Source: Silanimonas sp.
GTDB lineage: Bacteria > Pseudomonadota > Gammaproteobacteria > Xanthomonadales > Xanthomonadaceae
Assembly (NCBI GenBank): GCA_018334015.1
Contig: JAGXTI010000037.1
Coordinates: 21,390-85,389 of the forward strand
DNA length: 64,000 nt
Direction of reading: 5' to 3'
A program made the translations under genes and the position numbers. Under the pieces are notes generated by a model. It made no database searches. It saw nothing but the letters and a program-made list of their open reading frames with translations, and had not been told where the DNA came from. This document shows, piece by piece, positions 41,819 through 60,292 of the stretch. Each line of letters begins with the position of its first letter. Positions within the stretch are counted from its first letter, which is position 1.

Positions 41819-41835
41819 AAAAAGATGATTCCGCC

Positions 41836-49466: not shown

Positions 49467-49485
49467 CGGGTTTCTCCTCTCCAAA

Positions 49486-49513
49486 GAAAAACCCCGGGCG
49501 CAAACCCGGGGTT
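49486..49513 (-). terminator. Intrinsic terminator after the cold-shock gene
   Basis: On the minus strand, AACCCCGGG / CCCGGGGTT form a 9-bp stem with a 6-base loop (49490-49513), followed by a run of T. It separates csp from slyD. Confidence 0.88.
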
Positions 49514-49538
49514 CGTCACGCTCACGCGTGGTGCGGCT

Positions 49539-49748
49539 TCAGAGCGCCTGGACGGCGTCGGCCTGCAGGCCCTTCGGGCCCTTCACGACGGTGAAGCTGA
49601 CCTTCTGGCCTTCCTTCAGCGTCTTGAAACCCGCGCCCTGGATGGAGCGGAAGTGCACGAACAGGTCTTCGCCACCATCGCGCGAGATGAAGCCGAAGCC
49701 CTTGGCGTCGTTGAACCACTTGACGGTGCCGGTCTGACGATCGGACAT
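49539..49748 (-). CDS. Cold-shock protein (CspA family)
   Basis: Single-stranded nucleic-acid-binding OB-fold protein acting as RNA chaperone or antiterminator. The 69 residues contain [16 protein letters not shown] (RNP1) and DLFVHF (RNP2). The start at 49748 follows CAGGAGAC. The upstream ~110 bases on this strand are probably a transcribed leader, as in other csp genes, although temperature control cannot be judged here. Confidence 0.95.
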
Positions 49749-49964
49749 GAGTTGTCTCCTGAAAACAGTTTGAAAGAAATACACCGGGGGGCCGGCGGCT
49801 GTCTGCTGGGAGGCAACACAAGGGCGATGTAGCGGATCAACGATCTACCGCATCGGGACACAATTCACCGTGACCCGGCAAGCTCAGCACCGCCATCGTA
49901 AGCCTTTCCAAGCCGCTTGCCAACCGTTTGTCAAGGCCGCCCACAAAAAAGGCCGGGGTGGTGC

Positions 49965-49970
49965 TAGACT
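49965..49970 (+). promoter_or_regulatory. Extended -10 box of the first CopL-like gene
   Basis: TAGACT preceded by TGC. The GTG start follows after exactly 6 bases, so the transcript is expected to be leaderless. A -35 box is not evident, which fits an extended -10 promoter. Confidence 0.5.
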
Positions 49971-49976
49971 GGGCCG

Positions 49977-50366
49977 GTGAAACGCTCGTCCCGCCCCCTG
50001 CTGCGCTGCATCGGCCATGGCCTGCTGACCCTGCTGCTGGTGCTGCAGGCGAGCATGGTGCTGGCCCTCGGGGGCGCTGGCTGCGCCACGGCGGCGGTCA
50101 CCGTGACGGCCAGCGAAGCCGCGGCCACCCCGCCCTGCCACCCGGCCACCCCGGCGTCTGGCCTGCCCGCCGGTAACCCGGCTGCCGGCGAGGACTGCCT
50201 CGCGGGCGGCGGCACCTGGTGCGCCTGGGCCTGCTCGCTGGCGGCCAGTGCCCTGCCCCTGCCGATCGTGCCGGTGGCCCTGCCGCCGCCCGGCGCGCCC
50301 GATGCGCCCCCCACCCTGCTCGCCAGCCGCGCCCTGCCGGTTCCCCTGCGCCCACCCGCGGCCTGA
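49977..50366 (+). CDS. CopL/DUF2946-like Cys-His small exported protein (copy 1)
   Basis: Putative copper-responsive regulatory mini-gene of the Cus operon. The 129-residue product has a basic N-terminus and hydrophobic segment (about 12-33), then PPCHPA (Cys54-His55), Cys74, and WCAWAC (Cys82, Cys86), ending LPVPLRPPAA. The second copy at 58369 shares this plan and end. CopL of Xanthomonas, upstream of copAB, has a signal peptide, Cys/His-rich middle and similar end; assignment to CopL or DUF2946 rests on this pattern. No Shine-Dalgarno precedes the GTG. Its stop begins a base-paired leader. Confidence 0.65.
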   Translation: MKRSSRPLLRCIGHGLLTLLLVLQASMVLALGGAGCATAAVTVTASEAAATPPCHPATPASGLPAGNPAAGEDCLAGGGTWCAWACSLAASALPLPIVPVALPPPGAPDAPPTLLASRALPVPLRPPAA

Positions 50367-50438
50367 TTCCGTTGCTCGATACCCCGCCGGCACCCCCGGC
50401 GGAATGTCCCGCGGGCTTCAGCCCGCTTGCGCGGAATC
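50365..50438 (+). promoter_or_regulatory. Structured junction between CopL-like gene 1 and the efflux operon
   Basis: GATTCCG (50365-50371), overlapping the TGA stop, is complementary to CGGAATC (50432-50438), just before the next start. Inside are hairpins CCGCCGG/CCGGCGG (50384-50402) and GCGGGC/GCCCGC (50411-50426). A terminating ribosome would cover the left arm and free the downstream start. Confidence 0.55.
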
Positions 50439-50441
50439 CCC

Positions 50442-51734
50442 ATGATGAACCCCCGTTTGCTGATGGCCACCCCGGCCCTCTTGGCGGCGTTGTTGCTGGC
50501 CGTGCCATGCCGGGCGGCCACTGCCCGTGTGCCGGCGACCGCACCCGGAGCCACGCTCGACAGCCTGTTGGCGATCGCACGCGAACAACACCCCGAGTTG
50601 CGCACGATGCAGCACGAGGCCGAGGCCGCCACCCAGCGCCTCGACGCCGCCGGCACCCTTCCCGACCCGATGTTCGGCATCGAATTGCGCGACGTGACCA
50701 ATGCCGCCAGCAACGGCGACTTCAGCCTGTCGCCGGCCCGCGTCGGCAGCACCCGTTACCGGGTCGGCCAGACCTTCCCGCCCTGGGGCCAGCGCAGGGC
50801 ACAGCGTACGGCAGCGCAGGCCGGAGCCGACGAGGCTGCGCACCGCGTGGACTCGACCTGGGCCGATCTGGCACTGCGCATCAAAACCGCTCATGCGCGC
50901 TGGCAGCAGGTGCATGCCACGCTCGAGCAGACGCGGGAGATCGTCGCGCTGACCGAGCGTCTGGAGGCCCTGGCCCAGACCCGTTACGCGAGCGGGCTGG
51001 CACCGCAGCAGGACGTGATCCGAGCGCAGGTCGAACGCACGGCAATCGCCACCGAGATCGCAATGCTGGAAGCGGAGCGAGGGGCACTGAGCGCACGCCT
51101 GAACGGCCTGGTGGCGCGCCCCGCCGATGCACCGCTGGCAGCACCGCAGGCCGAGCCGGCCCTGCCGCCGGCTGCGCCGTCTGATCCCGCCACGCTGCGC
51201 GAGCGCATGCTGGCGCGCAACCCGCAACTGGCCGCCGAGGACGCGCGCATACGCGCCGCCGAGGGCAACAGGGAGGTCGCCCGCAGCAGGCGCTACCCGG
51301 AACTGACCATCGGCGTGGCTCCGATGCAGATGCGCAACCGCATCGACGAATGGGAGCTAATGCTCGAAATCAGCATCCCCTTGCAGCGGGGCAGGCAGCG
51401 GGCCGAGGAACGCGAAGCACAGGCGCTGCTGGCGGCGGCGCAGGCGCGCAAGGACAGCGCCGCCAATGAACTGCTGGCGCAACTGGGCGAGCAGTGGGCG
51501 GCACTGGCTGCGGCCCACCACATCGAATCACTGACCCGCACCCGCCTGCTGCCGCAGGCGAGCCTGACGCTGCAGGCCGCACTTGCCGGCTACGAGACCG
51601 GCCAGGTGGACTTCGCCACCGTGCTCGATGCCCTGCGCCAGAACCGCCAGGCGCAACTCAAGCTGATCGATACCCGTACCGAAGCACGCATACGGGCTGC
51701 CGAAATCGAGCGCCTGCTGGGAGAACGTCCATGA
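50442..51734 (+). CDS. TolC-family outer-membrane factor of a heavy-metal efflux pump (CusC/CzcC-like)
   Basis: Outer-membrane channel for the CusBA pump. The 430-residue precursor has a signal peptide (cleaved near residue 25, PCRA|ATA), then two long alpha-helical coiled-coil halves rich in Ala and Glu, typical of outer-membrane efflux proteins. The beginning SLLAIAREQHPELRTMQHEAEAA matches the family repeat. Unlike E. coli CusC there is no lipobox. A double ATG at 50442/50445 is the start; a TTG at 50427 is less likely. The stop overlaps cusB (ATGA). Confidence 0.85.
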   Translation: MMNPRLLMATPALLAALLLAVPCRAATARVPATAPGATLDSLLAIAREQHPELRTMQHEAEAATQRLDAAGTLPDPMFGIELRDVTNAASNGDFSLSPARVGSTRYRVGQTFPPWGQRRAQRTAAQAGADEAAHRVDSTWADLALRIKTAHARWQQVHATLEQTREIVALTERLEALAQTRYASGLAPQQDVIRAQVERTAIATEIAMLEAERGALSARLNGLVARPADAPLAAPQAEPALPPAAPSDPATLRERMLARNPQLAAEDARIRAAEGNREVARSRRYPELTIGVAPMQMRNRIDEWELMLEISIPLQRGRQRAEEREAQALLAAAQARKDSAANELLAQLGEQWAALAAAHHIESLTRTRLLPQASLTLQAALAGYETGQVDFATVLDALRQNRQAQLKLIDTRTEARIRAAEIERLLGERP

Positions 51735-53314
51735 GCAACGAAATGCAAGGCGCAAAACGCACGCCCTCCGTTCATCGCCTCGCTGCCATGGCCACCATCG
51801 GTGGGCGCACCGGCGTGACCCTGCTGGTGTTGCTGGCCGGGGTGGTGATCGCGGCGGCGGCCGGCTACTGGTTCGGTCAGCGCAGTGGGCAAGAGCAGGC
51901 CGCGGCCGCTCCGGCCGGGGACGAGGGCAGGAAAATCCTTTACTACCGCAACCCGATGGGGATGCCCTCAACCTCGCCGACGCCGAAGCAGGACTCGATG
52001 GGAATGGACTACATCCCGGTCTTCGAGGGCGAAGACGACGCGGGCGGCGGCATCAGGATTTCGGCCGAGCGCGTGCAGAAGCTCGGCGTGCGCGTGGTGC
52101 CCGTCGAGCGCCGCGCGCTCGACGAGACGGTGCGTGCCAGCGGCCGCATCGAGGCCGACGAGAGGCGCTTGGCCACCGTCACGGCGAAGTTCGACGGCTT
52201 CATCGAGAAGCTGCATGTCAACGCCACCGGCCAGCCGGTGGGTCGCGGCGCGCCCCTGTTCGATGCCTTCAGCCCCGAGCTCCTGGCCGCGCAACGCGAG
52301 TACGCGGTGGCAGCGCAGGGCCTGGCCCAGCTCCACGAGGCCGATGCCCAGGCGCGTGCGGGCATGCAGCGGCTGGCGGAGGCTGCGCTGGCGCGGCTGC
52401 GGCTGTGGGATGTGACCGAGGAAGAGATCGCCCGCCTGGTGGCCAGCGGTGAACCACGCCGCACACTGACCTTCCGGGCACCGGCAGACGGCGTGGTGGT
52501 CGAGCGCAAGGCGGTGCAGGGCATGCGCTTTGTGGCCGGCGAGACGCTGTTTGGCATCGCCGATTTCTCCAGCGTCTGGCTGATCGCCGATGTCGCCGAG
52601 CAGGACATCGGCCGCGTTCGGGTCGGCATGCCGGCGCGCGTTCGGCTCGACGCCTATCCGGGTGAGGTGCTCGACGGCCGCGTCACCTTCATCGCCCCGA
52701 CCTTGCGTGCCGAGACCCGCAGCGCCCAGGTGCGCGTCGAACTGGACAACCGCGATGGACGGCTGAAACCGGCGATGTTCGCGCAGGTCGAGTTGCCGGT
52801 CACCACCACCGACCTGCCACTCGTGGTGCCGAGATCGGCGGTCATCGACAGCGGGGTTCGAAGCGTGGTGATCGTCGATCGGGGTGCCGGCCGCTTCGAA
52901 TCGCGCGAGGTCAAGACCGGCCGTCGCGGCGACGAGTCCGTCGTCATCAACGAGGGCTTGAGGGAGGGCGAGAGCGTGGTGGTGGCCGCCAATTTCCTGA
53001 TCGACGCCGAAAGCAATCTGCGGGCGGCACTCGCCGACCTGAAGGGCGGCAGCAATACCAACCCGGACGCGGTGCCGGTGGTGCATGTCGCCATCGGCAC
53101 GCTCGACGATATCGACATCACGACCGGCACCTTGCTGATCACGCACGATCCGGTTCCGAGCCTGAATTGGCCGACCATGACGATGGAGTTCGTTCCGGCC
53201 GATGAGGCCGTTGCCAAGGCGGCACAACCCGGCGACGCGATCCGCTTCGAGTTCATCGAACGCAAGCCGGGCGAGTGGGTGGTGACCGCGATCGAAAGGC
53301 GGGAGGAGCAATGA
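51731..53314 (+). CDS. cusB: Cu/Ag RND periplasmic adaptor CusB with fused C-terminal CusF domain
   Basis: Membrane-fusion protein linking CusA to the outer-membrane channel and passing Cu(I)/Ag(I). The 527 residues have one anchor helix (about 28-46), a heavy-metal-binding segment (YYRNPMGM, DSMGMDYIPV, about 70-97), barrel-sandwich and beta-barrel domains (about 105-430), and a CusF-like domain at about 445-527. In the last, His472, Trp480, Met483 and Met485 reproduce the spacing of the CusF copper site (His36, Trp44, Met47, Met49). Adaptor and metallochaperone are thus fused. Its ATG overlaps the upstream stop. Confidence 0.92.
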   Translation: MSNEMQGAKRTPSVHRLAAMATIGGRTGVTLLVLLAGVVIAAAAGYWFGQRSGQEQAAAAPAGDEGRKILYYRNPMGMPSTSPTPKQDSMGMDYIPVFEGEDDAGGGIRISAERVQKLGVRVVPVERRALDETVRASGRIEADERRLATVTAKFDGFIEKLHVNATGQPVGRGAPLFDAFSPELLAAQREYAVAAQGLAQLHEADAQARAGMQRLAEAALARLRLWDVTEEEIARLVASGEPRRTLTFRAPADGVVVERKAVQGMRFVAGETLFGIADFSSVWLIADVAEQDIGRVRVGMPARVRLDAYPGEVLDGRVTFIAPTLRAETRSAQVRVELDNRDGRLKPAMFAQVELPVTTTDLPLVVPRSAVIDSGVRSVVIVDRGAGRFESREVKTGRRGDESVVINEGLREGESVVVAANFLIDAESNLRAALADLKGGSNTNPDAVPVVHVAIGTLDDIDITTGTLLITHDPVPSLNWPTMTMEFVPADEAVAKAAQPGDAIRFEFIERKPGEWVVTAIERREEQ

Positions 53315-53353
53315 GCGCGCGAATCCCACCGTCATCGAATCGGAAGCCTAGCC

Positions 53354-56300
53354 ATGATTGAAAAACTCATCGACTGGTCGGTCCGCAATCCGTTCCTGAT
53401 CGGCCTGATGACGCTGGCGCTGATCGTCGGCGGCACCTTGGCGCTGCTGCGCACGCCACTGAGTGCGCTGCCCGACCTGTCGGACGTGCAGGTGATCGTC
53501 TATACCGAGCTGCCGGGCCAGGCACCGCAGGTGGTCGAGGACCAGGTCACCTACCCGCTGACGACCGCGATGCTGAGCGTGCCGAAGAGCCGGGTGGTGC
53601 GCGGTTTCTCGTTCTTCGGCGTGTCGTTCGTCTACGTGATTTTCGACGATGGCACCGACATCTACTGGGCGCGCTCGCGCGTGCTGGAGTACCTCGATGC
53701 GGCCAGCGCCCGGCTACCGCCGGGTGTCGCACCCACGCTCGGCCCGGATGCGACCGGCATCGGCTGGGTCTACCAGTACGTGGTGCAGGCCAAGCACCTG
53801 ACGCTGGCCGAGCTGCGCACGCTGCAGGACTGGTTCATCCGCTTCCAGCTGACCAAGGCGCAGGGGGTGAGCGAGGTGGCTTCGGTCGGCGGCTTCGTCC
53901 AGCAATACCAGGTGATCGTCGATCCGGCACGGTTGCGCGCCTATGGCATCCCATTGGCACGCGTGGCCGAAGTGATCCGGGCCAGCAACCGCGATGTCGG
54001 TGGCCGGACGATCGAAATGACCGGAACCGAGTACATGGTGCGCGGCCGCGGATTGCTGCGCGACAAGGCCGATATCGAGAACCTGGCACTGATGGCCGCC
54101 GACGGCACGCCGGTGCGGGTGCGCGACGTCGCGCGCGTCGAACTCGGCCCGGACGAGCGCCGGGGACTGGCGGAACTCGATGGCGAAGGCGAGGTGGTCA
54201 GCGGCATCGTGGTCGCGCGCCACGGCGAGAACGAGCTGGAGGTCATCGACAACGTCAAGCAGCGCATCGAGGAGATCAAACCGGGATTGCCCGAAGGCGT
54301 CGAGATCGTAACGGTGTACGACCGCTCGCAACTGATCCACGCGGCGATCGGCACCTTGAGCAGCACCCTGGTGCAGGGCTCGATCATCGTCGCACTGGTA
54401 TGCGCGCTGTTCCTGCTGCATGCGAGAAGCGCGCTGGTGGTGATCGTGGTGCTGCCACTGGCGGTGCTGTTCTCGTTCATCTGCATGTACCTGCTCGGTA
54501 TCAACTCGAACATCATGAGCCTGGGGGGTATCGCGATCGCGATTGGATCGTTGATCGACTCCGCAGCGGTGATGGTCGAGAACGCGCACAAGAAGTTGGA
54601 ACGGCGTTTGGACCGATCAAGCGACTCGACGCGCATCGAAGCACTCATCGATGGTTGCCGTGAGGTCGGCCCTGCGCTGTTCTTCTCGCTCTTGATCACC
54701 GCGGTCAGCTTCCTGCCGGTCTTCACGCTGGAGGCCGAGGAAGGGCGTCTGTTCTCGCCGCTCGCCTACACCAATACTTTCGCGGTGCTGGGCGGTGCGC
54801 TGCTGTCGGTGACGCTGCTGCCGCTGCTGATGGTGTGGTTGATCCGCGGCCACATCCTGCCGGAGAGCGAGCACCCGGTTTCGCGCTTGCTGATCGCCGC
54901 CTACCGGCCAGTGGTCGACTGGGTGCTGCAGCGGCGCTGGCTGACGATCAGCCTGGCGCTGCTGGTCACGGCGGCGTCGATCTGGCCAGCCAGCCGGCTT
55001 GGCAGCGAGTTCATGCCGACCCTGAACGAGGGTTCGATCTTCTTCATGCCGACCTCACTGCCCGGCATGTCGGTGACCGAAGCCGCCGAAATGCTGCAAA
55101 CGCAGAACCGGATCATCAAGAGCTTCCCGGAAGTGGATTCGGTGATCGGCAAGGCCGGTCGCGCCGCCACCGCCACCGATCCGGCACCGCTGGAGATGTT
55201 CGAGACGGTGATCAACCTGAAGCCGGAGGACCAATGGCGGCCGGGAATGGACATCGACCAACTGATCGCCGAAATGGATGAGGCATTGCGGTTTCCTGGC
55301 GTGGCCAACAGCTGGACCATGCCGATCCGCGCTCGTATCGACATGCTGGCCACCGGCATCCGCACCCCGGTCGGCATCAAGGTGTTTGGTGCCAACCTCG
55401 TGGACATGGAGAGCGTGGCCCGCCAGATCGAGACCGTGGTGCGCAAGGTGCCAGGTGCCTCGAGCGTCTTCGCCGAACGCATCACCGGCGGCTTCTATCT
55501 CGACATCGAACCGGATCGCGAGCAACTCGCACGCCACGGCCTGACAGTGGGCGACCTGATGGATGTGGTGTCGATCGCGATCGGTGGTGAAGTGATCACC
55601 ACCATCATCGAAGACCGCGCACGCTTTGGCGTGATCGTGCGCTACCCACGCGATGCACGCTCCACTCCGGAGGCGATCGAACGCGAGGTGCTGATCGACC
55701 TGCCCGCAATACCCGGGCGTCCAGCGGCCACGATTCCGCTCGGACAGGTGGCCGAGGTGAACGTCGTGCAGGGCGCACCGGTGATCCGCACCGAGAACGG
55801 CCTGCTGGCGGCCTACATCTACGTCGACATCCGCGAACGCGACATCGGCGGCTTCGTGCGCGAGGCGCGGCGCGTCGTCAACGACAACATCGACTTCCCG
55901 CCGGGCATGTTCGTGACCTGGAGCGGGCAGTACGAGTACCTGGAGCGCGCGGTCGACAGGCTCACGCTGATCGTGCCGCTGACCCTGGCGATCATCTTCG
56001 TGCTGCTGTACCTGGCGCTGTCGCGGTTGACCGAAACCATCCTGGTGATGCTGTCGGTGCCGTTCTCGCTGGTCGGCGGCGTGTGGCTGCTGTGGGCGCT
56101 CGACTACCACCTGAGCGTGGCCGTCATGGTCGGCTTCATCGCCTTGGCCGGCGTGGCGACCGGAACCGGCGTGGTGATGCTGGTCTTCATCGACACCGCC
56201 TGGAAGGACATGCAGGCGAAATGCCGGGGCGAGGGCCGGCTGCCGACCAGGGACGAGCTGCGCTCCACGGTGGTCTATGGCGCGGTCGCGCGGGTTCGGC

Positions 56301-56530
56301 CGGTGGCCATCACCGTGGTGACCACCCTTGCCGCGCTTGGCCCGCCGATGTGGAGCATCGGCCCCGGCAGCGAGATCATGCAGCGCATCGCCGCACCGAT
56401 GTTCGGCGGCATGGCCAGCTCCGCCATCCTCACCCTGATCGTGATCCCAGCGATGTACCTGCTGGTGCTGGAGCGACGCCTGGCGCGCGACGCGCATTCG
56501 GCAAGCACCGCAAGCACCGCAAGCGCCTGA
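53354..56530 (+). CDS. cusA: Cu(I)/Ag(I) RND efflux transporter CusA
   Basis: Inner-membrane proton-driven pump of the heavy-metal RND class. It has 1058 residues, 12 expected membrane helices and two large periplasmic loops. Met565, Met615 and Met664 align by spacing (50 and 49) with the CusA metal triad Met573, Met623, Met672, so Cu/Ag is favoured over Zn/Co/Cd. In helix 4, IGSLIDSAAVMVENAH keeps Asp402. Two later positions reported as proton-relay residues in E. coli CusA, Glu939 and Lys984, appear as Gly937 and Val984. The C-terminus holds three 9-base repeats. Confidence 0.94.
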   Translation: MIEKLIDWSVRNPFLIGLMTLALIVGGTLALLRTPLSALPDLSDVQVIVYTELPGQAPQVVEDQVTYPLTTAMLSVPKSRVVRGFSFFGVSFVYVIFDDGTDIYWARSRVLEYLDAASARLPPGVAPTLGPDATGIGWVYQYVVQAKHLTLAELRTLQDWFIRFQLTKAQGVSEVASVGGFVQQYQVIVDPARLRAYGIPLARVAEVIRASNRDVGGRTIEMTGTEYMVRGRGLLRDKADIENLALMAADGTPVRVRDVARVELGPDERRGLAELDGEGEVVSGIVVARHGENELEVIDNVKQRIEEIKPGLPEGVEIVTVYDRSQLIHAAIGTLSSTLVQGSIIVALVCALFLLHARSALVVIVVLPLAVLFSFICMYLLGINSNIMSLGGIAIAIGSLIDSAAVMVENAHKKLERRLDRSSDSTRIEALIDGCREVGPALFFSLLITAVSFLPVFTLEAEEGRLFSPLAYTNTFAVLGGALLSVTLLPLLMVWLIRGHILPESEHPVSRLLIAAYRPVVDWVLQRRWLTISLALLVTAASIWPASRLGSEFMPTLNEGSIFFMPTSLPGMSVTEAAEMLQTQNRIIKSFPEVDSVIGKAGRAATATDPAPLEMFETVINLKPEDQWRPGMDIDQLIAEMDEALRFPGVANSWTMPIRARIDMLATGIRTPVGIKVFGANLVDMESVARQIETVVRKVPGASSVFAERITGGFYLDIEPDREQLARHGLTVGDLMDVVSIAIGGEVITTIIEDRARFGVIVRYPRDARSTPEAIEREVLIDLPAIPGRPAATIPLGQVAEVNVVQGAPVIRTENGLLAAYIYVDIRERDIGGFVREARRVVNDNIDFPPGMFVTWSGQYEYLERAVDRLTLIVPLTLAIIFVLLYLALSRLTETILVMLSVPFSLVGGVWLLWALDYHLSVAVMVGFIALAGVATGTGVVMLVFIDTAWKDMQAKCRGEGRLPTRDELRSTVVYGAVARVRPVAITVVTTLAALGPPMWSIGPGSEIMQRIAAPMFGGMASSAILTLIVIPAMYLLVLERRLARDAHSASTASTASA

Positions 56531-56598
56531 TCCATACCACTGCACTGCTTTTGTCAGAACCCGCTCCGCCCGACTTTCCACCCGAACGAGGATCCCCC

Positions 56599-56943
56599 AT
56601 GAAGCTCCGCCTTGCCCTTGCCACCGGCACCCTCCTGGTCCTGGCAGCCATCGCCACACCGTCCTTCGCCCAACACCGGCACGGCGTAGACCTGCCGGCC
56701 ACGTCAAGCACACAGGAGCTGGCCGACGGTGAAGTGCGCCGTATCGATCCCGCCAAAGGCACGGTCGTTCTCAGGCACGGCGAGATCAAGGCCATCGGCA
56801 TGGGCCCGATGACCATGAGCTTCAAGTTCAAGGATCCGACAATGGCAACCGGCCTCCAGGTCGGCGACCGGGTGCGGTTCCTGGTCGAACGGCAAGGCGA
56901 CGACTTCGTGATCACGCAGATCCAGAAAGCCAAGGAATCCTGA
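56599..56943 (+). CDS. CusF-like periplasmic copper-binding protein
   Basis: Small periplasmic metallochaperone. The 114-residue precursor has a signal peptide cleaved after SFA (residue ~24) and an OB-like CusF domain. The copper ligands fall at His60, Met71 and Met73 (HGEIKAIGMGPMTM); the position of the capping Trp in E. coli CusF is Met68 here. A second CusF unit is fused to CusB, so the operon encodes two different copper sites. ATG 56599 follows GAGGA. copC begins two bases after its stop. Confidence 0.88.
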   Translation: MKLRLALATGTLLVLAAIATPSFAQHRHGVDLPATSSTQELADGEVRRIDPAKGTVVLRHGEIKAIGMGPMTMSFKFKDPTMATGLQVGDRVRFLVERQGDDFVITQIQKAKES

Positions 56944-56945
56944 CC

Positions 56946-57305
56946 ATGCCTTGCCTGAAATGCATCGTCCGCGTGGCGCTGGCGCTGTACCTGCTACTGG
57001 CGGCAACCCAACTACTGGCCCATGCCCAACCGGAAGGCTCGCTGCCCGCGCACGGCAGCACCGTCAACGGCAGCCCGAACCGGATCGCGGTCTGGTTCGA
57101 TCACCCGATGCGGCTGACGCTGTTCGAAGTCAGCGGCCCGCGGGGCGCAGTGCCCTTGAGCCAAAGCCCGGGCCGCGACGCGCTCACCCGCTTCGAGACC
57201 AGCCCGGCCACACCGCTGGCACCCGGCAAATACACGGTGCGCTGGCGCGGCTTGGCGTCCGACGGGCACGTCATGGCCGATGAAATTTATTTCACCGTGC
57301 GCTGA
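56946..57305 (+). CDS. copC: Copper resistance protein CopC
   Basis: Periplasmic copper-binding protein of the CopC fold. The 119-residue precursor would be cut to leave an N-terminal His (LLA|HAQPEGSLPA). With Asp and His of LASDGHVMADEIYF, it forms the known Cu(II) site of type His-Asp-His. The Met-rich Cu(I) loop of Pseudomonas CopC is absent. It lies between the CusF-like gene and copD, its usual partner. Confidence 0.92.
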   Translation: MPCLKCIVRVALALYLLLAATQLLAHAQPEGSLPAHGSTVNGSPNRIAVWFDHPMRLTLFEVSGPRGAVPLSQSPGRDALTRFETSPATPLAPGKYTVRWRGLASDGHVMADEIYFTVR

Positions 57306-57341
57306 GGTGGACGCAGGCCTTGGCTTGACCGTGCTTGCGGC

Positions 57342-58274
57342 ATGAGCACCGCCCTGTCGCTGCTGCAACCCCTACTGGATCTTCTCGCGCAGACCGATGG
57401 CTGGGCCTGGCTGCGCGTGCTGGTGGCGGCAGCCTTCTACGCCAGTGCCTTGGTCGCCGTGGGCGGGGTGTGGTTTGGCTTGGTTTTCGGCGGCAATCCA
57501 GCGCTGGACCGGGCCGCCGGGCTGCGCACGCTGGTGCCCGCCGCCGCCGGCTTGGCGCTGGCCCTGCTGCTGCTGCAGTGGCCCTTGCAGGCGGGTTTCC
57601 TGGGTGGGGGCACCTGGGCGGCGGCCTTCGACCCCGGTTTGCTCGCGCTGGTGTTCGACGGCGCAGCGGGGCAGCGCATCCTGCTCGCTGGCAGCGGCTT
57701 GCTGCTGTTGTTCGGCGTATGGATCGAATCGGACCGCTGGCGTGGGCTCGGTGCGGCAGCGAGCCTACTGGGCGCGGCGCTGGTGCTGCTGGCCTTCACG
57801 CAAGTCGGGCACAGCGCCGGTGCACCGCGCCTGCTGCTGGCCAGCCTGCTGCTGTTGCACCTGGGCGCGGTGGCGTTCTGGGTCGGTGCCTTGCTGCCCT
57901 TGTACCGCATCAGCGGCCCGCCGCACTTGAGCCAGCCGGCGGCCCGGGTACTGCGGCGCTTTGGTCGGCTGGCTTCAGGAGCGGTGGCCGCCTTGATCGC
58001 GACGGGGCTGTGGCTGGCCTGGCACTTGATGGAGGGTTGGTCGTCTCTGCTGCACAGCGCTTATGGGCAAGTCTTGTCGCTCAAGCTCGCCGCGCTGCTG
58101 CTGCTGTTGGGCTTGGCTGCGCTCAATCGCTGGCACCTGGTGCCGGCCTTTGCGGCCAGCGCCCCGCGCGCACGGCAGCGGCTGCGCGCCAGCATCGCTT
58201 GCGAAGGATTTTTGGTGGCCCTGATCCTGCTCCTGACGGCTTTTTTGACCACCACCACCTCGCCGACGGGCTGA
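57342..58274 (+). CDS. copD: Copper resistance membrane protein CopD
   Basis: Inner-membrane protein of the CopD family that works with CopC; transport direction is debated in the family. The 310 residues contain about eight hydrophobic helices. LLLHLGAVAFWVGALLPLYRI near residue 170 has the conserved His and Trp of the family, and LWLAWHLMEGWSSLLHSAYGQVLSLKLAALLLLL follows. It ends block A; the next promoter is 60 bases downstream. Confidence 0.9.
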   Translation: MSTALSLLQPLLDLLAQTDGWAWLRVLVAAAFYASALVAVGGVWFGLVFGGNPALDRAAGLRTLVPAAAGLALALLLLQWPLQAGFLGGGTWAAAFDPGLLALVFDGAAGQRILLAGSGLLLLFGVWIESDRWRGLGAAASLLGAALVLLAFTQVGHSAGAPRLLLASLLLLHLGAVAFWVGALLPLYRISGPPHLSQPAARVLRRFGRLASGAVAALIATGLWLAWHLMEGWSSLLHSAYGQVLSLKLAALLLLLGLAALNRWHLVPAFAASAPRARQRLRASIACEGFLVALILLLTAFLTTTTSPTG

Positions 58275-58333
58275 TGTGCGCCTGCTGCCTGGTTCGCCAC
58301 GCCGCCGCATACATCGCTGGACAAGACGCGCAC

Positions 58334-58362
58334 TTGACCGGCCCATGCGGCACTGCTAGCAT
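58334..58362 (+). promoter_or_regulatory. Strong promoter of the second CopL-like gene
   Basis: TTGACC (58334-58339), 17-base spacer, TAGCAT (58357-58362) preceded by TGC. The ATG follows after 6 bases (CCCGGG), so the mRNA should begin at the start codon. Confidence 0.7.
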
Positions 58363-58368
58363 CCCGGG

Positions 58369-58782
58369 ATGACCACGCTGCCACCCCGCCGCCTGCGCGC
58401 CTGCCTGCACCTGATCCTGGTGCTGGTGCTGCTCGTGCAGTCGGCAACGGCGCTGGCCTTGGGAACCGGGCATGCACGCGCCCTGGCCCAGCCCGATGTG
58501 CCCGAGTCCTCCGCCGTGCTTGCTGCAACCGCAGCCGAACCCGACGCCGCGGCCCTCCCCTGCCATCCAGCCGTGCCCGACGCTGCACCCGAGCCCGTGA
58601 AGGGCTGCTGTCCGCTGGCGGCCTCCGGCCTGTGCACGTGGGCCTGTACCTTCGGCTCGGTGCCACTGCCCGTGCTCGATCACACGCCACACGCTCCTTG
58701 GGCTGTCTCGTCCTCGCTGCCACCGATGACCACCTTCCGGTCCATCGCCCTGCCCGTCGAGTTGCGGCCGCCGATCGCCTGA
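58369..58782 (+). CDS. CopL/DUF2946-like Cys-His small exported protein (copy 2)
   Basis: Paralogue of the 49977 gene, heading block B. It has 137 residues: basic start, hydrophobic segment (about 12-32), LPCHPA (Cys65-His66), a Cys80-Cys81 pair, CTWAC (Cys89, Cys93), then LPVELRPPIA at the end. The shared PCHPA, WAC and LRPP elements show common origin, while the intervening sequence has diverged. It could bind copper as it emerges or once exported. No Shine-Dalgarno is available if the mapped promoter is correct. Confidence 0.65.
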   Translation: MTTLPPRRLRACLHLILVLVLLVQSATALALGTGHARALAQPDVPESSAVLAATAAEPDAAALPCHPAVPDAAPEPVKGCCPLAASGLCTWACTFGSVPLPVLDHTPHAPWAVSSSLPPMTTFRSIALPVELRPPIA

Positions 58783-58862
58783 TTCCGCTGCACCGCCCGC
58801 TGCCACCACGCCTGCGCGTGGTGGCTGGATCGCAGGCCTCATGGCCCGCCCTGCACGGAATC
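58781..58862 (+). promoter_or_regulatory. Structured junction between CopL-like gene 2 and block B
   Basis: GATTCCG (58781-58787) overlaps the TGA stop and pairs with CGGAATC (58856-58862), just before the next ATG at 58868. With a one-base bulge, TGCA (58789-58792) and TGCA (58852-58855) extend the stem. Inside is a 9-bp hairpin CCACCACGC/GCGTGGTGG (58803-58824). The layout mirrors copy 1. Confidence 0.6.
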
Positions 58863-58867
58863 CTCCC

Positions 58868-59515
58868 ATGACACTTCGTTTCCCACTGGCCGCTTTGGCC
58901 ATTCTGGCTTCGTCCTTCGCCACCGCTCCTCAAGCCCGCCCCGTCACCTACGCCGGCGGCCATGTGCTGGTCCTCAGCCACCAGCCCACGCTCGACCAGT
59001 GGCGCTACACCCACTCCCCCAGCTTCCGCTGGTCGGTGAGCGTCGGCGGCCTGCGTGCCGATCATCTGGGCGAGACCCAGTCGCTCGATGTCGACTACCT
59101 CCGCGCCGCCCGCCTGCTGCATCGATGGAACCTGCCCGAGGCGCAGGCCAACGCCTTCCTCTGGGGCGGCATCGGCCAGACCCGCAGCGGAAAAGGCGAT
59201 GGCCTCGGCCGTCATGTCGGCCTGCAACTCGACTACGAGACCCGGCGCATCTACACCGCCCTGGTCAGCGAACTGCACGAGGGCGATGGCTGGTCGCATC
59301 GATTCGACACGGTCATGCTGGGTTGGTCACCCCACCCGCACGATGTCGACCGCATGGCCAGCTGGGTCGTGCTCAAGGGCATGCACACCAGCAATACCGA
59401 CGACAGCCGACTCAAGGGGGCGCTGGTGCTGCGCTTCTTCACCACCCGCTGGTGGCTGGAGGCCGGTGCCGACGAGGACGGCCGCCCGCTCGCCAACCTG
59501 ATGGTCAATTTCTGA
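58868..59515 (+). CDS. Uncharacterised exported protein, possible outer-membrane beta-barrel (block B)
   Basis: Function not recognised. The 215-residue precursor has a signal peptide (cleavage near TAPQA, residue ~22). The mature part is rich in aromatic residues and alternating hydrophobic positions (RWSVSVGGLRADHL, HVGLQLDYET, WWLEAGADEDG) and ends LANLMVNF with a terminal Phe, like outer-membrane barrels. Several His residues could bind metal. Its start is preceded only by CGGAATCCTCCC, part of the junction stem. A small palindrome, GCCGTT-CTG-AACGGC, follows its stop. Confidence 0.6.
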   Translation: MTLRFPLAALAILASSFATAPQARPVTYAGGHVLVLSHQPTLDQWRYTHSPSFRWSVSVGGLRADHLGETQSLDVDYLRAARLLHRWNLPEAQANAFLWGGIGQTRSGKGDGLGRHVGLQLDYETRRIYTALVSELHEGDGWSHRFDTVMLGWSPHPHDVDRMASWVVLKGMHTSNTDDSRLKGALVLRFFTTRWWLEAGADEDGRPLANLMVNF

Positions 59516-59550: not shown

Positions 59551-59889
59551 ATGAACATCCGCACAACGCTTGTCCTGCTCGCCCTGGCGCTCACCACCGT
59601 GTTCGCCAGCCCCCGTCTCGATGCCCGCAGCCTGCGGGTGGAAGTCAACGGACTGGTCTGCGCCTTCTGCGCCCACGGCATCCGCGCCGCCTTCGCCCGC
59701 CAGCCGGCCGTCGCCGAGGTGTTCGTGAGTCTGGAAGACCGGCTGGTCGCCATCGCCCTGAAACCCGACCAGGACATCAGCGACGCCATCACCAAGGAGC
59801 TGCTCACCGACGCCGGCTACACCGTGGTGCGCATCGAGCGCACCGAGGCCACGCTGGCCGAGATCCGCGCCGAGGCCGATCGTGACTGA
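59551..59889 (+). CDS. MerP-like periplasmic heavy-metal-associated (HMA) protein
   Basis: Exported metal-binding protein. The 112-residue precursor has a signal peptide (about 1-26) and a ferredoxin-like HMA domain with VNGLVCAFCAHGIR. Cys37 and Cys40 form the CxxC metal site; the spacing residues Ala-Phe differ from the usual GMTCxxC. A short charged tail follows. AGGAG precedes the ATG. It overlaps the MerT-like gene by eight bases, so the two are likely made together. Confidence 0.85.
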   Translation: MNIRTTLVLLALALTTVFASPRLDARSLRVEVNGLVCAFCAHGIRAAFARQPAVAEVFVSLEDRLVAIALKPDQDISDAITKELLTDAGYTVVRIERTEATLAEIRAEADRD

Positions 59890-60292
59890 AGCCGGCGATT
59901 CGGCCCAGGCCCTGCTGACTCCGGTCCGGCAGAGCCTGTGGGGTGCTGGTGGCGCACTGCTCACCAGCACCGGCACCCTGATCTGCTGCGTGCTGCCGGC
60001 GGTGATGGTGAGCCTGGGGGCCGGTGCCGCGCTGGCCGGGCTGGTCAGCGCCGTGCCGCAGATCGTCTGGCTGTCCGAACGCAAGGGGCTGCTGTTCGGC
60101 ATCGCCACGGTCGCCCTGCTGCTGGCCGGCGCGCTGCTGTGGCGGGCGCGCTCGGCGCCCTGCCCGGCCGATCCGGCACTGGCACGGACCTGCATGCGGC
60201 TGCGGCGCTGGTCGAACGGGCTTTACCTCGCCTCGGTGCTCGCCACGATCACCGGCGCGCTGTTCGCCTTCGTGCTGCCAGCGCTGGGCTGA
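59882..60292 (+). CDS. MerT-like metal transport membrane protein
   Basis: Small inner-membrane protein of MerT topology. The 136 residues have helix 1 with adjacent Cys35-Cys36 (TLICCVLPAVMVSLGAG), helix 2 (about 70-88), a loop with Cys94 and Cys104, and helix 3 (about 112-134). MerT carries the same Cys-Cys pair and two loop cysteines and takes Hg from MerP into the cytosol. No mercuric reductase or MerR is near, so another metal such as copper is possible. GTG start at 59882. Confidence 0.8.
   Translation: MTEAGDSAQALLTPVRQSLWGAGGALLTSTGTLICCVLPAVMVSLGAGAALAGLVSAVPQIVWLSERKGLLFGIATVALLLAGALLWRARSAPCPADPALARTCMRLRRWSNGLYLASVLATITGALFAFVLPALG

Follow-up and report, generated by a model that had tools for sequence, protein, structure and literature searches.

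CopL-like leader genes in Silanimonas and a predicted co-varying helix between the end of the leader and the next ribosome-binding site

Two leader loci and the genes that follow them

The window (the whole 64,000-nt stretch of Silanimonas DNA analyzed here) contains two loci built from the same set of parts, which we call copy 1 (49965-50444) and copy 2 (58334-58870) (Table 1). Copy 2 consists of a promoter, a leader ORF of 137 codons, an 85-nt gap, and the start codon of the next gene (58868-58870), and its leader starts 94 bases downstream of CopD. The TAGCAT hexamer is followed by 6 nt and then by the leader ATG (58369), and this promoter was the sole sigma-70-like match within 58250-58900 (mean of 0.0 in shuffled sequences). 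From this spacing we can predict that transcription starts at or adjoining the ATG, i.e., that the mRNA is leaderless. In copy 1, a -10-like TAGACT (49965-49970) likewise stands 6 nt ahead of the GTG (49977), and a search for a canonical plus-strand promoter upstream of this leader found none. An Rfam cspA thermoregulator (89.9 bits; 49485-49884, minus strand) adjoins copy 1 upstream, on the opposite strand; at the leaders themselves, Rfam gave no family.

Table 1. Coordinates in the window of the features of both leader loci and of the genes that follow them.
Feature	Position	Strand	Description or basis
Leader ORF, copy 1	49977..50366	+	GTG start, 129 aa, CAWAC, C terminus LRPPAA-stop
5' arm GATTCCG, copy 1	50365..50371	+	Sequence, folding
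Internal hairpin 1, copy 1	50384..50402	+	Folding
Internal hairpin 2, copy 1	50411..50426	+	Folding
3' arm CGGAATC, copy 1	50432..50438	+	3 nt to ATG 50442
Copper gene set 3' of copy 1	50442..58274	+	Profile searches
Copper set: OEP	50442	+	
Copper set: CusB-like MFP with CusF domain	51731	+	
Copper set: RND pump	53354	+	
Copper set: CusF	56599	+	
Copper set: CopC	56946	+	
Copper set: CopD	57342	+	
Sigma-70-like promoter, copy 2	TTGACC 58334-58339, N17, TAGCAT 58357-58362	+	Sequence scan
Leader ORF, copy 2	58369..58782	+	CopL-like, 137 aa, hydrophobic N terminus, CTWAC (CxxxC), C terminus LRPPIA-stop
R-P-P-I-A codons, copy 2	58765..58779	+	Putative ribosome arrest motif, before the stop
5' arm GATTCCG, copy 2	58781..58787	+	Anti-SD strand; overlaps the TGA stop 58780-58782 (GA)
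TGCA, 5' half of stem extension, copy 2	58789..58792	+	Folding
Internal hairpin, copy 2	58802..58825	+	58803-58811 with 58816-58824; 10 pairs in the MFE
TGCA, 3' half of stem extension, copy 2	58852..58855	+	Folding; partner 58789-58792
3' arm CGGAATC, copy 2	58856..58862	+	Carries GGA ribosome-binding core; 5 nt to the ATG
First gene after copy 2 leader	58868..59515	+	215 aa, signal-like N terminus, C-terminal Phe, OMP-like by eye
Second gene, copy 2 operon	59551..59889	+	HMA-like metal-binding protein (NGLVCAFCAHGI)
Third gene, copy 2 operon	59882..60292	+	Small membrane protein, weakly MerT-like (MerT 18.2 bits, cut-off 150)

An earlier note made on this DNA had described the promoter of copy 2 with the ATG 6 bases on, the two arms at the leader stop and before the next start, and a TGCA/TGCA extension with an internal hairpin; every coordinate of the promoter, ATG, and arms was verified, and the extension and hairpin were both found. 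Its statement that the arms are identical in both copies while the sequence between them has diverged also holds, the intervening stretches being unlike by eye and the leaders 38% identical.

Judged by their scores, the leader proteins are CopL-like and not curated members of the family. Against the NCBIfam CopL profile (NF033807), the leader of copy 2 scores 21.5 bits and that of copy 1 28.2 bits, both below the curated cut-off of 40, with matches covering positions 3-129 and 6-127 of 129, respectively. Besides both window leaders, this cut-off misses several RPP leaders, and a model weighted toward the C terminus and the Cys motif might find more. Neither window leader matches Pfam DUF2946 (PF11162) up to an E value of 1, and one CopL leader protein had no match in a plasmid collection. 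Both window leaders end in RPP plus two residues and the stop, as in most of their relatives, and both pass the filters for CutF-like proteins given in the available part of PMC9973294 (<150 aa, PP in the last 15 residues, an N-terminal signal, and a same-strand next gene within 1,000 nt), with 137 and 129 aa, RPP, and same-strand gaps of 85 and 75 nt for copies 2 and 1; the N-terminal signals were judged by eye. The copper-gene context that belongs to the CopL family definition is present at copy 1, and for copy 2 an HMA-like gene stands second in line.

The 215-aa protein encoded first after the copy 2 leader had no match in Pfam, NCBIfam (both searched with a version beginning one codon inside), or PDB sequences. 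The second gene scores 22.7 bits against HMA, under the cut-off of 24.8, and is MerP-like, again with a score under the cut-off; its product contains NGLVCAFCA and is probably exported. These first two genes recur in loci of Lysobacteraceae, Methylophilaceae, and Burkholderiales. A scan of named genomes found 24 loci with the family of the 215-aa protein (in Silanimonas, Pseudoxanthomonas, Lysobacter antibioticus, Methylotenera, Aquabacterium, and others), with a leader ending in RPP or EPP immediately 5' of the gene in 15 and none in 7; L280 and L281, where the RPP ORF lies >200 nt upstream, were excluded. A gene with NGxVCxFC follows in all seven orthologous loci inspected (L261, L264, L266, L268, L272, L276, and L281). 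An uncharacterized three-gene operon (OMP-like, HMA-like, and MerT-like) is now tied to a leader of the CopL/CutF/CruR kind, and the metal is less certain for copy 2 than for copy 1, because the gene set of copy 2 lacks a named copper protein.

Of 299 genomes examined from the order, 157 contain the CopL family at an E value of 0.001, and in 83 the match exceeds the cut-off. We retrieved 130 matches, which, read to their stops with further loci and the two window copies, make 140 rows. RPP lies inside the last 16 residues in 131 of these, mostly as RPPIA or RPPIG right at the stop. Eight of the nine others are unusable readings (L013 to L017 are weak matches, while L138, L141, and L143 were misread through a partial-match offset), and L011, with EPP, is the true exception. 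The distance from the last Cys of the Cys motif to RPP is 36 to 42 residues in 91 of the 92 nonredundant loci that have the motif, and 39 to 41 in 76. The leader is used with several gene sets: the proteins of 93 next genes include Cu-oxidase_3 (45), OEP (30), TonB plug (10), and cytochrome c domains (3), which bears out the earlier suggestion of a cassette heading different gene sets, one that may be portable as a unit and whose role would presumably be regulatory.

Evidence for the helix across loci

In both window copies, GATTCCG at the leader stop forms a stem with CGGAATC at the next gene's ribosome-binding site, and this stem closes two hairpins in the minimum free energy and centroid structures. 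The SD-masking stem that characterizes CutF is thus present in the predicted folds of both copies. The folded gaps beat 200 of 200 shuffles (z of -4.06 and -4.80); with longer flanks the stem persists and z weakens to -1.68 and -2.91, with 10 and 1 of 200 shuffles doing as well. The arm words themselves are not enriched in the window, TGATTCCG occurring 3 times against 1.88 expected and CGGAATC 12 times against 11.1. Exact-word searches were uninformative, and their reversed-pattern control was biased, because the reversed word is rare in GC-rich DNA. The third TGATTCCG (41826-41833) lies directly 5' of the ATG of a small ORF that looks antitoxin-like.

The decisive support for the predicted helix is comparative. 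For each position of a 14-nt window moved through leader and gap, we scored the best ungapped stem that it could form with the 19 nt ahead of the next start and compared this with stems between the same window and the ribosome-binding regions of other loci. The CopL set comprised 94 of 98 nonredundant loci, after L064, L096, L036, and L116 had been dropped for want of a plausible next start; L137 (no next ORF) and L142 (no stop) were left out, L010 is the window copy itself, and next starts were as automatically picked except that of copy 2, set by hand at 58868. Windows starting at -6, -3, -1, and 0 from the stop gave z of 8.1, 6.9, 5.5, and 5.5, flanked by 4.4 at -12 and -9 and by 4.9, 3.7, and 2.7 at +1 to +3, and z stayed between -1.8 and 1.8 at -18 or less and at +6 or more. 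Stems scoring at least 17 occur in 19 of the 94 loci, against 3.3 expected, and the other 75 lack a strong ungapped stem at the stop. As a negative control, the same procedure was applied to generic tandem gene pairs drawn from 20 genomes and the window; in the first 160 of these 210 pairs z did not exceed 2.43, a slight excess. A prior duplex test with 26- to 27-nt windows was noisy and was superseded by the sliding windows: own arms averaged -14.5 kcal/mol and swapped arms -12.9, with 0 of 5,000 permutations as good, the own partner was in the best 5% for just 15 of 98 loci, and the two window copies were beaten by 17% (copy 1) and 11% (copy 2) of swapped partners.

The sequence of the stem differs between loci, as in CTAAGCGTC/GACGCTTGG, AAGCCCTCC/GGAGGGTTT, TCCGCTGAT/GTCAGCGGA, TGATTCCA/TGGAGTCA, CGTTGGC/GCCAACG, TGACTCC/GGAGTCA, and others. 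Related loci show stepwise changes, e.g., from AAGCGTC/GACGCTT through AAGTGTC/GACGCTT (G-U) to AAGTGTC/GACACTT and from GATTCC/GGAATC through GATTCC/GGAGTC (G-U) to GACTCC/GGAGTC; these steps were read by eye, as two alignments (A4 and A5) misplace the arms and pairs were not counted there. In a sister-swap test, arms were exchanged between nearest relatives by leader similarity whose arms differ at three or more places. Own arms won 65 to 26 of 102 pairs (P = 1.4e-6; 39 to 17 of 63 for CopL and 25 to 10 of 39 for DUF2946), against 41 to 44 (P = 0.61) for an upstream control stretch, so the pairing signal is not only shared ancestry and co-evolution of the arms is supported. When bulges were allowed in a partition function over a 13-nt SD region, at least 4 arm pairs were expected in 43 of 85 CopL and 40 of 67 DUF2946 loci (fewer than 4 in the remaining 42 and 27), compared with 21 of 192 control loci, these sets being the 94, 73, and 210 loci without those with long or very short gaps. 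In the gap of L073 the complement is very long, with GAGTGT and TGATGGT downstream of the stop matched by ACACTC and ACCATCA upstream of the next start, whose pick is uncertain.

The orthologues of copy 2 behave in the same way. With the window copy they number 16, of which 13 are distinct (arm windows with <80% identity); three (L261, L263, and L270) coincide with CopL-set loci L012, L011, and L139, and the two sets thus partly overlap. Own stems of the 13 exceeded all 5,000 permutations in the windows at -6, -3, and 0 (z of 5.1 to 7.0), with arms such as GAATCGAGC/GCTCGATTC (L258), AACTCCATTGG/CTGATGGAGTT (L265), TCACGCCC/GGGCGTGA (L266), TTCTCCGT/ACGGAGAA (Lysobacter, L268), CTTTCTTAAAG/TTTTAAGAAAG (Methylotenera, L272), and GATTCCGT/ACGGAATC (L262). 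The stem score is 14 or less in 4 of the 16 (L259, L260, L263, and L269).

The earlier note had read the identical arms as a sign of selection on the pairing and had proposed beforehand to look for their co-occurrence and co-variation in Lysobacterales, where paired arms are indeed enriched and co-vary. It had also named two trivial origins. Conserved coding sequence does not account for the arms, as 22 of 35 CopL stems of at least 14 begin no earlier than the first base of the stop, nor does ordinary ribosome-binding sequence, since swapped-in ribosome-binding regions match worse. What survives of the paired arms at the stop and the next start is the conserved pairing; the words TGATTCCG and CGGAATC do not, being one of many versions of the helix.

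Position of the arm and of the promoter

Of 398 genomes from the phylum, 113 contain DUF2946, the family of CruR, and 90 loci were retrieved (79 usable, 73 nonredundant), with RAPP near the C terminus in 60 of the 90 and RGPP in 11. The sliding test on the 73 loci gave z up to 8.15, with the arm slightly more upstream, in the last codons. Once loci are anchored on the first Pro codon, the families line up, with z of 7.85 (CopL) and 9.23 (DUF2946) in the +6 window, and DUF2946 stems of at least 17 rise from 13 to 17 of 73 (2.4 expected). In CopL, the Pro motif lies 12 nt from the stop in 85 of 94 loci, and this near constancy makes the two anchors inseparable. Splitting DUF2946 by the distance from Pro to stop left the peak relative to Pro steady at +3 to +9 (z of 6.8 at +3 in the 47 loci with 15 nt or less and 6.2 at +3 in the 26 with 18 nt or more), while the peak relative to the stop shifted from -9 (z of 6.6) to -18 (z of 6.3) as the distance grew. 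Only this shift between classes favors the Pro anchor; within a class the stop fits about as well or better, with z of 6.3 against 6.2 for Pro in the 26 distant-stop loci and 5.9 against 4.6 in the 18 loci with at least 21 nt.

We therefore regard the Pro-Pro motif, and not the stop codon, as the probable determinant of where the arm lies. The CruR arrest has been toeprinted with two Pro codons in the P and A sites, according to the part of PMC12992588 at hand, which would place the arm close to the leading edge of a ribosome halted at that point. Since CopL carries R-P-P where the tested motif is R-A-P-P, its arrest register could be shifted by one codon; the same source reports RxPP, with x being Gly, Ala, Ser, or Pro, as recovered in arrest screens. 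The hairpin that hides the next start would begin about where the ribosome probably stalls, which suggests how CopL may work.

As for transcription, TAnnnT ends 6 nt (33 loci) or 7 nt (15 loci) ahead of a candidate leader start in 48 of 94 CopL-family loci (those among the 98 nonredundant loci with enough upstream sequence), compared with 0 to 9 loci at each other distance from 0 to 24 nt, a count that is an estimate, since several candidate starts were tried per locus. The peak is weaker in DUF2946 (9 and 5 of 62). A -10 box at 6 to 7 nt puts the transcription start on or adjoining the start codon and suggests leaderless mRNAs in the CopL-family loci with this spacing.

A candidate arrest mechanism, its rivals, and known systems

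The leader ORF and its motifs, the helix with its co-variation, and the location of that helix with respect to Pro-Pro are computed features of these loci, and on them we base the view, which we hold with good confidence, that the leader is a nascent-chain metal sensor of the CopL/CutF/CruR kind; this short gene probably senses copper during its own synthesis. What we infer beyond these features is the arrest, copper as the signal, export, the metal-on direction, and control at translation rather than transcription. The mRNA would begin at or adjoining the leader start codon, so that the ribosome loads at the 5' end, and the peptide would be exported as it is made. When the Cys motif, some 39 to 41 residues ahead of R-P-P, meets metal, most likely copper, the ribosome would pause on R-P-P, its front edge covering GATTCCG and preventing the helix with CGGAATC, and the next ribosome-binding site would stay open. 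Without a pause, the ribosome would terminate and depart, the hairpin would close, with the two internal hairpins bringing the arms together, and the next gene would be silent. The sign, with metal opening the site, was chosen because efflux and oxidase genes follow; it could be the opposite, by analogy with CruR, where copper relieves arrest (PMC9426467, in part). For CutF, the Pro motif alone gave no strong arrest in the part of PMC9973294 available, which describes leader, Cys motif, Pro motif, and SD-masking stem as working jointly.

With moderate confidence only, we favor a rule for metal-sensing arrest leaders: the anti-SD strand would sit where the Pro-Pro-arrested ribosome has its leading edge (about 6 to 24 nt after the P-site codon) and not at the stop, the Lysobacterales leader would often be leaderless, and CopL would be a CutF-like translation-arrest sensor. 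The equally good fit of the stop within classes lowers the probability of the Pro-Pro position. If the rule is true, the paused ribosome is itself the switch, and in Lysobacterales sensing starts at the first codon of the mRNA. Such switches could then be predicted from sequence, by locating the Pro-Pro motif and seeking an SD complement directly 3' of it.

Among the other readings, Rho-dependent attenuation deserves the most weight, and we still regard it as unlikely. As in CruR, a paused ribosome would shield the transcript until copper frees it and Rho terminates before the next gene. CruR, in which this operates, is a relative in kind (RAPP, with 45 residues between Cys motif and RAPP; consulted part of PMC9426467), and a search for terminator-like sites around both gaps found none. 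Attenuation, however, does not predict an SD-complementary strand right after Pro-Pro, which both families have, and the efflux and copper-resistance genes found here should go on, not off, with copper; Rho and SD masking could also act together. Plain translational coupling, in which the terminating leader ribosome melts the hairpin at each translation without sensing metal, would account for an arm that overlaps or abuts the stop, as seen in both window copies and many CopL loci, and the stop anchor does fit about as well within each Pro-to-stop class. We nevertheless find it improbable, as it leaves unexplained the almost invariant RPP and Cys spacing and the shift of the arm away from the stop where stop and Pro motif are more separated.

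Still less probable is an operator in the DNA for a copper-responsive repressor or activator. An exact inverted repeat found twice in one copper island invites this reading, but the repeat lies >400 nt downstream of the promoter, and its arms vary between orthologous operons yet stay complementary, unlike a fixed binding site. Least of all do we credit chance pairing of common stop-codon context with SD words in GC-rich DNA: the words alone lack enrichment and generic gene pairs do show their slight excess (z up to 2.43), but the swap tests preserve SD words and composition and still give z of about 8, with the sister pairs at P = 1.4e-6.

The class of mechanism that we favor is already known from CutF, CruR, and SecM, which we compare here from parts of the papers cited. 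CutF-cutO of Rhodobacter capsulatus has an exported CxxxC leader (CTWAC here), a C-terminal Pro-Pro, cis action, and a stem that masks the SD of the next gene, which copper switches on (PMC9973294); it differs in that the next gene is a multicopper oxidase and in its shorter gap of about 40 nt (PMC8456105), compared with 75 and 85 nt in the window. CutF-like proteins and their gap lengths were already surveyed in PMC9973294, whose consulted part states no position rule relative to the arrest site for CutF. CopL of Xanthomonas and Stenotrophomonas (NF033807) is of the same order, matches the window leaders over nearly its full length, though below the cut-off, and precedes copper genes; the classical CopL heads copAB, whereas the window leaders are followed by an OEP/RND set (copy 1) and by another operon, of three genes (copy 2). 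Copper regulation of copA requires copL, which has no action in trans and is possibly isofunctional with CutF (PMC9973294, in part). A 2023 paper, in the part available, notes that copL was not predicted as coding and that its exact function is largely unknown, and its introduction calls it a transcriptional activator (PMC10312155). CruR (DUF2946) of Bordetella pertussis shares the Cys motif, fixed spacing, Pro-Pro arrest motif, and copper-regulated genes, with 45 residues from CXXC to RAPP against 36 to 42 to RPP in CopL loci, but it has RAPP instead of RPP, is repressed by copper in a Rho-dependent manner, and precedes a TonB-dependent transporter (PMC9426467). In SecM-secA and the related Sec/YidC monitoring leaders, an arrested ribosome likewise holds an SD-masking stem open (PMC10987492), although what these monitor is protein export and not a metal; no SD-masking hairpin is predicted for ApcA, ApdA, and ApdP in the part of PMC7897499 consulted.

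The literature searched, to which some older copL/cutF work does not belong and which was available in part, contained no statement that ties the place of an SD complement to the arrest motif across both families, and none on a leaderless copL or on the copy 2 operon; the position rule or a leaderless copL may be partly in print already. The co-variation indicates that two copper-leader families, and not only the Rhodobacter system, mask the SD with a helix that lies just 3' of the arrest motif, and the role of copL, a loose end, becomes specific and cheaply testable.

The genome itself holds a third leader (L009, contig C20:18167-18481, minus strand), which ends in FRPPIG and the stop and has a His-rich middle without the Cys motif. 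No clear SD helix was seen at this locus; the gene 3' of it is TolC/OEP-like by eye, and L009 is possibly the sensor of a different metal.
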